DNA of 64,000 bases, from assembly GCA_937944145.1 (NCBI GenBank), contig CALDZK010000004.1, positions 186,001 through 250,000 on the forward strand. The letters run 5' to 3'. This DNA comes from an uncultured Candidatus Altimarinota bacterium. Its GTDB lineage: Bacteria > Patescibacteriota > Gracilibacteria > BD1-5 > UBA6164. How positions within the stretch are numbered: the stretch's first letter is position 1; each line of letters opens with the position of its first letter. Under the pieces are notes generated by a model. It saw only the letters and a list, made by a program, of their open reading frames with translations. It was not told the origin of the DNA and ran no database searches. Below, one piece after another: positions 30,253 to 35,644 of the stretch. The translations under genes were made by a program, and so were the position numbers.

Positions 30253-31032
30253 GTGATACAAATACAAAACTTAGAAGTTCAAGCAGGAGAAAAAGATATA
30301 CTCAAATGAGTGAGTCTTGATTTTGAGCTTTGAAAAAATTATTGTCTCCTGGGAAAAAATGGAAGTGGGAAATCAACACTCTCAAGTGTTCTTATGGGGC
30401 ACCCGAAATACGAAGTCACAGGAGGAGCAATAACTATCTCTAGCCCTCACCCCACCCCTCTCCCAAAAGGAGAAGGAGAAGCTGCAGATCTCTTGGAGAT
30501 GGAACCAGACGAGAGAAGCCAGTCAGGTATATTTCTCAGTTTTCAAAATATTCCTGAGATAAAGGGAGTGAAGTTGAGTGAATACCTCAGAACTATTTTT
30601 AACATCTCTGAAAAAGGAAAAAATGAGGAATTTAAAGAACTCTCTCCATTTCTCTTTAAGAGGTTTGTGAAAAAACACTTAGAAGAGCTCCATATAGATG
30701 AAAAGTTTCTTGATAGAGATCTGAACGTATGATTTAGTGGAGGAGAAAAGAGAAAAATAGAAATACTCCAGATGAAACTTATAGGACCAAAATACATTAT
30801 TTTGGATGAAATAGATAGTGGATTGGATCTGGATGCGTTCAAAACAGTTGCGACTATGCTGCAATCTATAAGTAGTGAAAATAATTCTATTATTATTATT
30901 ACGCATTACTTTACGATACTCGAGTATATCGATGTCGATAGAGTCTTTGTGATGAAGGATGGGAATATAGTAAAAGAGGGAGGAAAAGAACTTGCTGACC
31001 AAATTAGTCAGGAAGGGTTTGGAGAAATATAG
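30253..31032 (+). CDS. sufC: FeS assembly ATPase SufC
   Basis: 259 aa ABC-type ATPase of the SufBCD scaffold. Walker A GKNGSGKS at 34-41, FLSFQ Q-loop, signature GFSGGEKRK (Gly TGA), Walker B YIILDEIDSGLD, H-loop ITHY. Start is GTG 30253; no in-frame ATG upstream. Where other SufC proteins have a short turn before DLLEMEPDER, this one carries an extra Pro/Gly-rich stretch SPHPTPLPKGEGEA encoded by a palindrome-family sequence. Stop TAG abuts the element at 31032. Confidence 0.95.
30443..30489 (+). repeat. Palindrome-family sequence inserted in-frame in sufC
   Basis: GCCCTCACCCCACCCCTCTC with a CTCC/GGAG hairpin, closely similar to the left halves of the copies at 31032 and 34899. Encodes SPHPTPLPKGEGEA within SufC. 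The right-hand GAGGGC end of the full element is not present here. Confidence 0.7.
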
Positions 31033-31130
31033 CCCTCACCCTAACCCTCTCCCATTGGGAGAGGGTATGAGTTAAAATAATGAAATATTGTAGCTTCATT
31101 TCTCCCTTTGGGAGAAACTAGAATGAGGGC
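31032..31130. repeat. Palindromic element, full copy between sufC and sufB
   Basis: 99 nt. Outer GCCCTCA (31032) pairs with TGAGGGC (31124). Internal hairpins: ACCCTCTCCC/GGGAGAGGGT, AATGAA/TTCATT and TTCTCCC/GGGAGAA. Begins at the last base of the sufC stop codon. Its left half is the sequence found inside sufC and sufS. Confidence 0.8.
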
Positions 31131-31191
31131 AACACAATAGAAAATAAATACAAAAAATCTCTCACGAGTTTGAGAGAAGTATGTTCTTAAT

Positions 31192-31225
31192 AAAAAAAAG
31201 CTATCCTCACATCATGAGGACAGCA
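31192..31225 (-). terminator. Terminator for the 62-aa minus gene
   Basis: On minus: GCTGTCCTCA / TGAGGATAGC (one mismatch) followed by eight T. Confirms transcription of the small membrane-protein gene leftward. Confidence 0.8.
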
Positions 31226-31233
31226 AAAACTTT

Positions 31234-31422
31234 TTACGGCAATAATGCTGAAATAATAGTGTTTGTTTTTAGGAATATTTTAAGGAGTATTCCAAAAACA
31301 GTCAGTATTATCAACAATTTTAGTGTTCTCTCTATTTCCTCAGAAAAGAAGAAAATCAGCACTATTGCTATTATGAGTAATGTATCTACACCCATATTTA
31401 CCTCTTTGTCTACTAATTTCAT
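31234..31422 (-). CDS. Small membrane protein
   Basis: 62 aa from ATG 31422: two hydrophobic helices (VDTLLIIAIVLIFFF and LKLLIILTVFGILLKIFL). The frame is open further upstream to an ATG at 31566, but that would overlap the sufB start antisense; the hydrophobic stretch just upstream leaves the exact start uncertain. A strong terminator follows. Nested antisense between sufC and sufB. Function unknown. Confidence 0.55.
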   Translation of the reverse strand: MKLVDKEVNMGVDTLLIIAIVLIFFFSEEIERTLKLLIILTVFGILLKIFLKTNTIISALLP

Positions 31423-31513
31423 AGGCTTCTCTGGATTAAGAGAATTATTTAACCTAAAAACAAGTAGTCTTACTATACAACAAAATAAAAATTTTACAAA
31501 TAATTTATAAATT

Positions 31514-32917
31514 ATGTCAACTTCTACCGTAACCGTCGAAAACACTTGGGACTTCTCAGATGACATTGCCTACAAAGGTGATGCGATTCAGGGAATTAAT
31601 GAAACAGTGGTGAGAGAGATCTCTACTGCAAATGAGGAACCAAGCTGGATGCTGGAGAAACGTCTGGAGGCACTCAAGCTCTATGAAGCACGTCCTATGC
31701 CAAATTGGGGTCCAGATCTCTCAGATCTTGATCTCCAGTCTATCTATTATTTCCGTAGACCAGAAGGTGCCGGAGATAATAAATCATGGGATGATGTTCC
31801 TGATGAGATAAAAAATACTTTTGATAAACTCGGAATCCCCGAAGCAGAGAAACATGCTCTTGCAGGAGTCGGAGCGCAGTATGATAGTGAAACAGTATAT
31901 CATAGTCTGAAAGAAGAAATTGCAGAGCAATGAGTTATTTTTGATGATCTCTCAAATGCTCTGAAGAACCCTGAATATGAAAAAATTATCAAGAAACACT
32001 TTGCTAAGTCTATCCCACTCAATGATCATAAGTTTAGTGCTCTCCACTATGCGGTTTGGTCTGGAGGAACATTTCTTTATGTACCAAAAGGGGTAAAGGT
32101 CTCTGAGCCACTGCAATCATATTTTCGTATGAATGTGAAAAAAGGAGGACAATTTGAACATACGATGATTATCGTAGAAGATGGTGCAGAAGCGCACTAT
32201 ATAGAATGATGTTCTGCCCCAAAATATGATGAGAACTCACTGCACGCATGAGGAGTAGAGATATTTGTCGGAAAAAATGCGACGATGAGATATAGTTCAG
32301 TAGAAAACTGGTCACTCGATACCTATAACCTCAATACCAAAAGAGCAATAGTAGAAGAATCAGGATATATGGAATGGGTCGGTGGAAATATGGGAAGTAA
32401 CACGACTATGCTTTATCCATGTAGTGTTCTCAAGGGAGACAACTCTAGAGCTGATCATCTCGGAATTGCCTTTGCCAATGCAGGACAAAACCAAGATACA
32501 GGAGCGAAAATAATCCATATAGGAAAAAATACTTCGAGTTCAGTAGTGTCAAAATCTATCTCCAAGGCAGGAGGGCTCTCGACCTATAGAGGACTGATTG
32601 ATATAAAACCAAGTGCTACGGGAAGTGTTACCAAGATAGAGTGTGACGCTCTTCTTCTCGATGATAAATCAGGATCTGATACGATACCAGATATTCGTTG
32701 TGGAAATACTGAATCTATAGTAGCTCACGAAGCAAGTGCCGGAAAGATAAACGAAGACGACCTCTTTTATCTCCAATCCAGAGGTATCTGAGAGGAGGAA
32801 GCTGCAGCGATGATTGTAAATGGATTTATTTCACCGATAGTGAAGGAGTTACCTCTTGAGTATGCGAGCGAGATGAATGTGCTTATTTCCATGGAAATGG
32901 AATGAAGTATTGGATAA
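31514..32917 (+). CDS. sufB: FeS assembly scaffold SufB
   Basis: 467 aa. Ends of the family are clear: [62 protein letters not shown] (Gly TGA, Cys conserved), and the C-terminal [20 protein letters not shown] with [14 protein letters not shown]. Beta-helix scaffold on which the cluster is built with SufC/SufD. Followed by an overlapping small gene. Confidence 0.97.
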
Positions 32918-33255
32918 CATATTTTCTTTTTCTATCAATACTTATAGGTGGTACTTTTTGATATCCGTTTTTTCTAAATTTTTCTATTAATATTAGTTTT
33001 TTATATACATCTTATAAAATAGAACGTTTAGAATGAGTTGAGATTTATGATAAATATATTAGTGTTGAGGGTTGAAGTTGAATGTACTGTAACTTTCATT
33101 ATCTATTAAATTGAGAATTAAGTAATAAAATTAAGAAAGATATAAGTGGTTCCTTTGCAAGTAAGTCTTATTTGCGTGATAAAGAATTATATATATCAAC
33201 TTGAAAAAACTGTGAGTATTATTATTGAAAAGGAACATATTATCGTAACAGTTAA
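32902..33255 (+). CDS. Small membrane-anchored protein in the suf operon
   Basis: 117 aa, ATG overlaps the last 16 nt of sufB in another frame. One N-terminal hydrophobic helix (about residues 3-35, [20 protein letters not shown]), then a polar domain rich in Tyr, Lys and Gly with three Cys. Much AT-richer than its suf neighbours. It ends 3 nt before the A-type carrier gene, so it is translated from the suf mRNA. Not a known Suf component. Confidence 0.65.
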
Positions 33256-33258
33256 GAA

Positions 33259-33654
33259 ATGCTAACACTCGACAAAAAAACAGTAACCGAATTTGAATCT
33301 GAGGGAATACAAAAACTCAAGGTTTTTTTCTATGAGGCTGGATGTAGTGGAACCAAGATAAATATGGAAACAGAGTTTGAGGTCACGGATGATATTGAGC
33401 AACTCGAAGCAGATTATGCATTTGCACTCTATGTTCCAAAGAGTGATAAAGAACACTTAGAACACGCGAGAATAACCAGAGTTGTCGTTGCAGATCATAC
33501 AGGAATAGAAAAAACGAGATATGTATTTAGTAGTGACGAGGTAGAAGACCGATGTGGCTGTGGAACGAGTTTTGCTTTTGAGAAACCAGCTCCAGTGATA
33601 GACCTAGAAAAACTCAAAAAAATGAGAGAAAATTTTATAAAAAATAAAAAATAA
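33259..33654 (+). CDS. A-type FeS carrier (SufA/IscA/HesB family)
   Basis: 131 aa. Conserved Cys in YEAGCSGTKI and the C-terminal CGCGTSF pair are the three cluster ligands of A-type carriers. Longer than usual (about 107-120) by a C-terminal helix. Delivers clusters to apo-proteins. Located inside the suf operon. Confidence 0.88.
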   Translation: MLTLDKKTVTEFESEGIQKLKVFFYEAGCSGTKINMETEFEVTDDIEQLEADYAFALYVPKSDKEHLEHARITRVVVADHTGIEKTRYVFSSDEVEDRCGCGTSFAFEKPAPVIDLEKLKKMRENFIKNKK

Positions 33655-33656
33655 TT

Positions 33657-34334
33657 ATGAACCTAACAGAAAACAAACTCTATACGAGTACAGACTTACA
33701 AGCAGAAATTCATATAGCTGATAGTGTTTCAGTGATGATACATGATGAGGCTGATATCCTTACAAAAGTAACTTTTGGAAAATGAGCTTCACTCAAATAT
33801 TTTGGGTATTTTCAAACAGAAAGTAAGCTCAATAAACTCTTTCACATAAATGGAGAAGAAAATAATTGTGAGGTATATGCGCTCCTAAGTTCAAAAGGAG
33901 AAAATATTACTGCAAAAATAGAAGGGAGACTCGAGAGCTCTGGGAGTAAGCTCAATATGCATATTGTCAGTTTTGTTTCTGATGGATGATTGATTGACCT
34001 TGATGGTATTGTAAATATCACCGAAGGGATAGAAAAAGTAGAAGGATACCTAACAGAAGAAAATATATTTGTCGGGCAAAGTGGAAAGGTGAGAGGACTT
34101 CCAACACTGCTCGTACATAGTGATGATGTAAAAGCAGCACATGCCTGTAATATGGAGAGAATCAGTGACGATAAGCTGTTCTACCTTCGTAGTCGTGGAC
34201 TGCCAAGAGAAGATGCTACCGTACTAATGCTCGAGAGTTATATCGCAAAAGTATTTGGAGATCTAGAAGAGGTAAACGAAGAACTCTACACGAATATAAA
34301 AGAAAGAATTTTAGAAAGGATAAAACACAAGTAG
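33657..34334 (+). CDS. sufD: FeS assembly protein SufD (short)
   Basis: 225 aa, about half the usual SufD length. The C-terminal beta-helix end is characteristic: HSDDVKAAHACNMERISDDK and LFYLRSRGLPREDATVLMLE. The N-terminal helical part is reduced. Functions as the SufB partner. Starts 2 nt after the A-type gene and stops 2 nt before sufS. Confidence 0.85.
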
Positions 34335-34336
34335 AT

Positions 34337-35644
34337 ATGTCTATAAAAAAAGGTTTCCCCATATTCCAAACGCATCCAGGTCTGATATATCTGGATAGTA
34401 CGGCTACCAGTCAAAAACCATCACATGTTATAGATGGAGTAGCTGAGTATTTGTCATCGAGTTACGCAAATATTCATAGGGGAAGTTACGATATATCAGA
34501 ACAATCAGAAAAACTGTATGTTGAAAGTAAGGAAATAGTAGCAAAGAACATAGGAGCAGAAAACTGGAGAGAGATTATTTATACTGCAAATTCTACTTAT
34601 GCACTCAACCTCCTCGCTCAGAGTATCTGGAGAACGTGAATCTTAAAAAAATGAGACAAAGTTCTAGTGAGTATCGTCGAACATCATGCAAACGTGGTTC
34701 CATGGTTGATTCTCAAAGAAGACTATGGGATAGAGGTAGAGTATATAGAAATCAATGATGACTATACTCTCGATATGGATGATCTATCTCAGAGGCTTGA
34801 TGATAAGGTAAAGATTGTTTCTCTGGCCCATGTGAGCAATACTACAGGGCAGATTTTTGATTTGGAGAAGGTGAATAAGTTATTGGATGAGAAATACAGC
34901 CCTCACCCTACCCCTCTCCCAGAGGGAGAAGGAAAAACTGCAGTTTCTCACCTCATTTCAGGAGAGACTGATTGAAGACAATGACAGAAAAGGCCACTCT
35001 TTATTGTAGACGGATCTCAGAGTGTTCCTCATTTTGCTGTAGATGTGAAAAAGATAGGATGTGACGCGATGTTTTTTACAGGGCACAAGGTATTTGCAGA
35101 TAGTGGTATAGGAGTACTTTGGGCAAAAGAAGAATTATTAAATGAACTTAAGCCTATTTTTTCAGGATGAGGAGCTATTGGGAGAGTAGAGCAAGAATCA
35201 TTCACACATTCTACTACACTTCCAGATAAATTTGAACCAGGAACTCCAAATCTGTCAGGAGCTGTCAGTTTACTGAAGGCATTTGAGTATATAGAATCTA
35301 TAGGAGGATATGAAAAACTTGAAAAAATAGAACAAGAATTGGTTGATTATACACTGGAAAAATTAGAAAATACTCCAGATATACAACTGATTGGTGGGAA
35401 GGATAAAAATACCCGTGTTGGAGTATTTACCTTTTATGTTCCTGCAGTACATAGTTTTGATATATCTGATTATCTGGCTGATAATAACATATGTGTTCGT
35501 GCAGGGCAACACTGTGCTGAACCATTTATGGAACACGAGGGGCAACATCATACATGTCGTATGAGTTTGCATATTTATAACACGACAGAAGATATAGATA
35601 AGTTTTTTGAGGTACTTAGCAATGCAATTAATGATTTGAGATAA
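34337..35644 (+). CDS. sufS: Cysteine desulfurase SufS
   Basis: 435 aa PLP enzyme (usual about 405-415). LDSTATSQKP start, SIVEHHANVVPW, LAHVSNTTGQ, IVDGSQSVPH, PLP lysine in FTGHKVFADSGIG, catalytic Cys in RAGQHCAEPF. An extra segment of about 30 residues (SPHPTPLPEGEG and following) lies between KLLDEK and RPLFIVDG and is encoded by a palindrome-family sequence. The stop TAA overlaps the sufU ATG (TAATG). Confidence 0.96.
34899..34975 (+). repeat. Palindrome-family sequence inserted in-frame in sufS
   Basis: GCCCTCACCCTACCCCTCTC plus CTCCC/GGGAG hairpin, then a TCTC..GAGA hairpin near 34945-34966. Nearly the same left half as in sufC and at 31032. Encodes SPHPTPLPEGEGKTAVS within the desulfurase, in the same frame as in sufC. 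Confidence 0.7.

Follow-up and report, generated by a model that had tools for sequence, protein, structure and literature searches.

The window, by which we mean the whole stretch of 64,000 nucleotides that was analysed (from an uncultured Candidatus Altimarinota bacterium, contig CALDZK010000004.1, positions 186,001 to 250,000), carries two suf genes whose frames are open under genetic code 25 only, in which TGA is read as glycine, as at SufC residues 19, 27 and 160. A short palindromic sequence accompanies them three times, and the features are the following:

30253..31032, plus strand: sufC, with a GTG start and 259 residues under code 25; it matches solved SufC (E 2e-51) and the ABC_tran family
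30442..30486, plus strand: inserted palindromic unit with one hairpin, translated as SPHPTPLPKGEGEAA, SufC residues 64-78
30444..30464, plus strand: left arm of the sufC insert, CCCTCACCCCACCCCTCTCCC, the reverse complement of BoxC/TM_ECO type A except in the N3 loop
31031..31130, plus strand: free two-ended copy, with a left hairpin, an inverted right hairpin and the outer stem GCCCTCA/TGAGGGC
34337..35644, plus strand: sufS, cysteine desulfurase, under code 25 (Aminotran_5, E 1.4e-109)
34898..34978, plus strand: sufS insert of about 27 residues, SPHPTPLPEGEGKTAVSHLISGETDGR

The unit within sufC, 45 nt of DNA running AGCCCTCACCCC...GCTGCA (AGC...GCA), brings a net gain of 13 residues with respect to the nearest empty relative. 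The sequence-only reading of this DNA had proposed that a palindrome-family stretch is translated inside sufC, where it would replace a short turn, and that it is nearly identical to the left half of the free element downstream; the stretch is indeed there, the frame runs open through it under code 25, and the two left arms (30444-30464 and 31033-31053), separated by some 544 nt, are equal at 19 of 21 bases when compared by eye. When 46 nt are compared, the copy in sufC equals the free one at 31 positions, and at 41 positions the copy in sufS (34898), which that reading had not mentioned and which is its closest relative. As for the turn, in an AlphaFold2 model a strand at residues 54-62 is followed at the insert by coil (63-77, with block-mean pLDDT of 63-65), and in the alignment to solved SufC chains the insert falls at a position that agrees with this coil, which together support its predicted location in a surface turn. 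Its presence in the SufC protein is to be presumed from the open frame.

At E 0.001 the SufC search gave matches in all 60 genomes, the weak ones of which may be other ABC proteins; 30 loci were fetched and 27 of them aligned after a motif filter, the three that the filter missed being left out. The turn is empty in 23 of these 27 Gracilibacteria SufC and filled in four, belonging to the genome studied here (G000), its sister G001, G004 and G020. The same peptide was also sought in more distant SufC and was absent from all 25 other sequences of a second alignment (A2), so that the insertion proposed by the sequence-only reading stands. The closest named relatives of this SufC are Candidatus Gracilibacteria assemblies, and in the sister genome sufC carries an insert of the same family in the same turn, with its left arm in another phase and with the tail GGAGAAGGAGAAGCTRCA of the one-hairpin unit, which our sufC copy also has. 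That the stretch might simply be ancestral SufC sequence, with no insertion at all, would agree with the peptide being in frame and with the related one in the sister genome, but it is refuted by the empty relatives, and the same DNA recurs in unrelated genes and in three phases; we therefore give this explanation practically no credit, and consider both the insertion and the frame of its translation to be well supported. The SufC of G004 (L064) and G020 (L047) hold, in the same turn, inserts of unrelated sequence, about 31 residues long in the first and about 9 in the second, each with inverted ends of its own (ACAGGACACC...GGTGTCCTGT and ACCGGT...ACCGGT); insertions have recurred in this turn of SufC. 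No clear target-site duplication was found at the SufC junctions, nor at those of RecG described below.

The first bases of the free copy finish the TAG stop of sufC (31030-31032), and the copy folds as two hairpins closed by the outer stem (z -6.70, with none of 200 shuffles as good); it has terminal inverted repeats, as MITEs and TIR transposons do. The sufC copy folds as a single strand no better than shuffles (z -0.04), with seven of nine stem positions paired against nine of nine in the free copy, and thus the decay that the sequence-only reading had suggested holds at the level of DNA. The loss of a right end, which it had also supposed, finds no support here: the usual tail is kept and the one-hairpin form is the commonest, 118 of the 134 copies listed in the genomes compared having no detectable inverted partner downstream. 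The sufS copy likewise folds no better than shuffles (z -0.57); the matches of relatives to SufS split at 187 and 213-220, and this insert reads like a degraded two-ended copy.

Three places in the window match the 21-mer pattern of the left arm with at most three mismatches (one in sufC, one at its stop codon, one in sufS), whereas 100 dinucleotide shuffles of the window gave 0.00 matches on average. The whole genome has seven copies, one at the sufC stop and six inside genes, these being sufC, sufS, SOD, ileS, a methyltransferase gene of RsmB/F type and one of RNase R type. The copies within genes use all three phases, and are read as SPHPxPLP or PHPNPLL in sufC, sufS, SOD and the RNase R type, as ALTPPLSQEERE in ileS and as PSPHPSPKERGS in the RsmB/F type. 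A control with the reversed pattern gave 2 and 1 matches in this genome, which look explained, as far as reasoning goes, by the fact that the CACCCC variant is nearly mirror-symmetric. Three of the seven copies lie within 4.5 kb of suf genes (30442-34978), and this cluster, in which those of sufC and sufS are the most alike, suggests local copying. Two further observations concern the other hosts: the ileS insertion is found at the same place in G000 (L005, about 1501) and in G017 (L025, about 993), which belong to different genera, and it may be old, recurrent or transferred; and the RsmB/F-type gene (L006, 652-1737, on C13 of the same genome) has, besides the palindrome, a second odd stretch, GTGFRIFPGGDNVSKTDPATSAGGQEKE, possibly an insert that belongs to a different repeat family.

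Among the 60 genomes, 30 (this one included) have a match to the palindrome, and the matches listed comprise 134 distinct copies in about 30 genomes. Inside open reading frames of at least 150 residues there are 120 of the 134, of which 113 are in sense and 7 in antisense orientation; since most of a bacterial genome is coding, the proportion within frames proves little by itself, and the telling part is the bias of orientation and phase. Within the copies listed, all 47 sense copies of T-type, in which TAA would stop phase 0, use phase 2, while those of C-type are in phase 0 in 51, in phase 2 in 10 and in phase 1 in 4. A Pfam family was recognized in 45 of 50 host proteins scanned, mostly housekeeping, and the hosts include MetRS, CysRS, PheRS beta, LigA, UvrD, RNase R, RecG, RecQ, TrmU, ThiI and DNA polymerase III subunits. 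Hop elements are a form of translational bypassing, and this possibility was set aside, given that in-frame stops are avoided and that phase 0 is used by T-type copies in none of the 47 sense cases. In one 645-residue frame with no Pfam match (L328, G011:C51), three copies follow each other at exactly 150 nt, and so the palindrome can join a tandem protein repeat.

The motif itself is an old acquaintance. The left end of the free copy is the reverse complement of TM_ECO type A, CCCTCACCCTAACCCTCTCCC-N3-GGGAGAGGG (Table 1 and section 16 of PMC4666352), and at 31033-31065, on the minus strand and compared by eye, the free copy reads CCCTCTCCC-AAT-GGGAGAGGG-TTA-GGGTGAGGG, in agreement with the BoxC/TM_ECO pattern CCCTCNCCC N3-6 GGGNGAGGG N3 GGGNGAGGG (either strand, one mismatch allowed), from which the sufC copy deviates in its stem. 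The structure computed here is hairpin folding, triplex formation being a property reported for BoxC/TM_ECO. The paired arm strings are found in the literature (PMC4666352; PMC2869309), while the insert peptide or a single DNA string gave no useful match there. According to the accessible text of Holder et al. (2015, PMC4666352), there are 3610 TM_ECO copies across 262 proteobacterial genomes, those of E. coli K-12 being always intergenic, the motif is linked to instability, and no mobility genes, transposase or integrase are reported near the copies. The enterobacterial BoxC/PIT/TM_ECO repeats thus share with ours the sequence and the occurrence of inverted paired copies (PMC4666352), but differ in that they are intergenic and, in the same accessible text, have no mobility genes, whereas the copies of Gracilibacteria lie mostly in genes (6 of 7 in our genome), are translated, and are tied to DUF559, as described below.

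Other families of protein-coding palindromes are also comparable. The Rickettsia palindromic elements (RPE) are likewise short palindromes inserted in frame and open through in unrelated genes, a likeness that we draw from descriptions of RPE; they differ in length (about 150 bp reported) and host, and no nuclease partner is mentioned in the portions available (PMC10969869; PMC3733652). The GTAG/CGTC REPs, and REPtrons with RAYT, offer similar hairpins in size, dimers, and locations in some repair genes, and a repeat of this class, moved by a Y1 (IS200/IS605-like) tyrosine transposase as is thought for GTAG REPs, would account for the size, the hairpin, the dimers of opposite orientation, the sites in repair and tRNA-synthetase genes and the stop codons donated by the ends (PMC3733652, in part); G000 and G001 indeed have one Y1 match each. 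Against this, the GTAG tag precedes the arm in 2 of the 134 copies listed (the left side being examined), and Y1 is absent at E 0.001 from 7 of the 11 genomes with at least five copies (G004, G011, G013, G017, G035, G049 and G057), all 11 of which have DUF559, and consequently we find this origin very unlikely.

DUF559 came up through the hosts, since in RecG of G012 and G019 and in TrmU of G013 a DUF559 domain lies in frame between flanking palindromes. The family search gave 99 matches in 36 of the 60 genomes, of which 88 loci were used, the other 11 being partial or at contig ends, with one short flank. At each locus the left 200 nt were compared by alignment with the right 200 nt in reverse complement, and at a score of at least 20 the flanks match as terminal inverted repeats, as in MITEs and TIR transposons, in 67 of the 88 loci, against 87 of 880 cross-genome pairs and 15 of 168 distant pseudo-sites of the same loci (compared by Fisher tests); the signal is absent at the remaining 21, and flanks in direct orientation reach that score in 29 of the 88, as expected of palindromes. 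A copy of the CCCTCACCC type stands at a flank in 15 of the 88 loci, against 5 of 219 pseudo-sites, so that the tie of this exact sub-family to DUF559 rests on a minority; its orientation is nevertheless uniform, with 10 of 10 left copies in sense and 8 of 8 right copies inverted, all 18 pointing inward. The other loci have different palindromes, such as CCCCCTTGA..AAGGGGG, or none, and the single DUF559 of our own genome (on C10), whose inverted flanks score only 10, ends early.

Palindromes and DUF559 also go together in number. Element and DUF559 counts in the 60 genomes are correlated (Spearman 0.55, with P-values that are optimistic because the genomes are related), and DUF559 is present in 25 of the 30 genomes with elements, against 11 of the 30 without them; the five remaining element-bearing genomes have no DUF559 match. 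An alternative here is passive spread, in which new copies of triplex-forming palindromes would arise through slippage during replication, through template switching or through local gene conversion, with no dedicated enzyme, and DUF559 would be found close to them because only tolerant loops allow either to persist. Such copying would suit the clustering of the suf copies and the resemblance of those in sufC and sufS, as well as the instability and the lack of neighbouring transposase or integrase in the account of Holder et al. cited above. It does not foresee, however, that the palindromes should be the two inverted ends of an inserted DUF559 unit in several host genes, nor the inward orientation and the excess of matching inverted flanks, for which reason we judge it rather improbable.

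If DUF559 is counted as embedded where the frame stays open for 60 residues or more on each side of it, the unit is embedded in frame in 26 of the 88 loci, splitting RecG, TrmU, MiaB, RecQ, TsaD, RarA/MgsA, RsmB/F, an aminoacyl-tRNA synthetase and other genes. Pfam domains of the host are recognized on both sides in TrmU of G012, G013, G040 and G044, in MiaB of G037, G054 and G055, in RecG of many genomes and in the other hosts just named; RecG proteins that lack the unit match the G035 protein in two parts, with the break at about 337 and 517, and RecG of G003, of the same genus, is empty. At the protein level the palindromes form the two ends of the embedded unit, as in SPHPNPLPKGEG (left) and PLPLGEVRGGQ (right). 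The nuclease domain matches 3hrl (E 1.7e-18), the solved relative of DUF559/YcjD, and an alignment of 81 of the 88 loci, from which the shorter ones were dropped, shows the conserved D, E, D and H residues preserved in all 26 embedded copies and in at least 54 of the 55 free ones. In the literature found, no description places DUF559/YcjD, which has this nuclease domain in common with our unit, in an element with palindromic ends, and no link between DUF559 and palindromes or BoxC mobility appeared, an absence that is weak since subscription papers were largely outside the search. In a LeuRS-type frame of another genome (L412, G007:C3), a NUDIX domain and a DUF559 domain are apparently both inserted in frame.

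The same sites recur across genera in RecG (10 genomes), TrmU (4) and MiaB (3), which brings the unit close to inteins with EDxHD homing endonucleases, where a nuclease domain is likewise in frame in conserved genes and at recurrent sites. Homing proper, in which DUF559 would cut the empty alleles of conserved genes and recombination repair would follow, the palindromes serving expression or stability only, would explain those shared sites, the conserved housekeeping hosts and the intact nuclease residues, and a DUF559 gene has in fact been called an EDxHD homing endonuclease (PMC9403480, in its accessible part). What it does not explain is that the ends at one site come from different palindrome families in different genomes, and that solo ends are spread to many unrelated sites; we regard this explanation as unlikely. 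The recurrent sites may instead be permissive loops, without targeting. Unlike inteins, moreover, the unit has palindromes as ends and would be kept in the protein: a Hint/intein family was found neither in 20 DUF559 proteins at E 1e-4 nor in 7 at E 1e-3, and the sequences of the copies within genes give no sign of RNA or protein splicing.

With these alternatives considered, the sufC insert is probably the solo and decaying end of a DUF559-encoding, palindrome-ended family of mobile elements of BoxC/TM type, with the nuclease as the proposed mover, and the free copy at 31031-31130 is best read as a two-ended member that is not autonomous. The complete element would consist of (i) a left palindromic hairpin; (ii) the DUF559 domain (EDxHD/Vsr-like), some 70-100 nt from the start of that hairpin; (iii) and finally, a palindrome of the same kind in inverted orientation. 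Shorter forms would have arisen with the two ends joined without the nuclease, in about 80-100 nt (the free copy and, degraded, the sufS insert), as well as single ends of about 45 nt, such as that of sufC. These elements insert into genes, and the copies that survive there lie in loops, in sense orientation and in a phase free of stops, and are presumably translated as a linker rich in Pro, Gly and Glu; the sufC copy, once inserted, has been decaying at the DNA level while its frame was kept. We infer from sequence comparison that DUF559 moves the element, and also the manner of cutting, which would take place at or beside the hairpins and would mobilize complete copies as well as, acting in trans, the short forms.

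Outside Gracilibacteria, a sample of 10 plasmid DUF559 loci, out of 36 records found, includes five (two of Pseudanabaena, two of Deinococcus and one of Sphingomonas) whose inverted flanks score 40-61, above the highest three cross-pair controls listed, while the other five do not exceed the controls. In P. galeata the DUF559 unit lies inside one annotated CDS of 4,866 nt, beside an MmeI-type methyltransferase domain, so that embedding in frame also occurs outside code 25. In E. coli K-12, a BoxC/TM copy is located about 165 nt behind the 3′ end of ycjD (DUF559), and a second hairpin overlaps that end, although as one locus this is only suggestive; the inverted-flank alignment obtained at ycjD (score 21) was spurious and we draw no support from it. 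A wider proposal, which we hold tentatively and at somewhat less than an even chance, is that DUF559 would be the mobilizing nuclease of a widespread and unrecognized class of tiny elements with triplex-forming palindromes as ends (BoxC/TM and sister families), translated inside housekeeping genes like inteins without splicing, of which the BoxC of E. coli would be solo ends and ycjD a domesticated or stranded nuclease.

The BoxC/TM repeats of E. coli have been known since the 1990s with no route of spreading assigned to them and no mobility genes nearby in the accessible account (PMC4666352). A nuclease gene with palindromes of the same kind as inverted ends makes this question testable, and a family of elements ended in this way around DUF559 could explain the spread of the repeat. 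It would also add, beside Rickettsia and the REPs, a further case of palindromes that code for protein, this time in bacteria whose genetic code is altered, and it suggests a way in which proteins might acquire new linkers and even whole nuclease domains. At another level, the palindrome with its hairpin is found in at least 120 stretches of IMG/VR viral contigs, and viruses are a possible vehicle for it between hosts.
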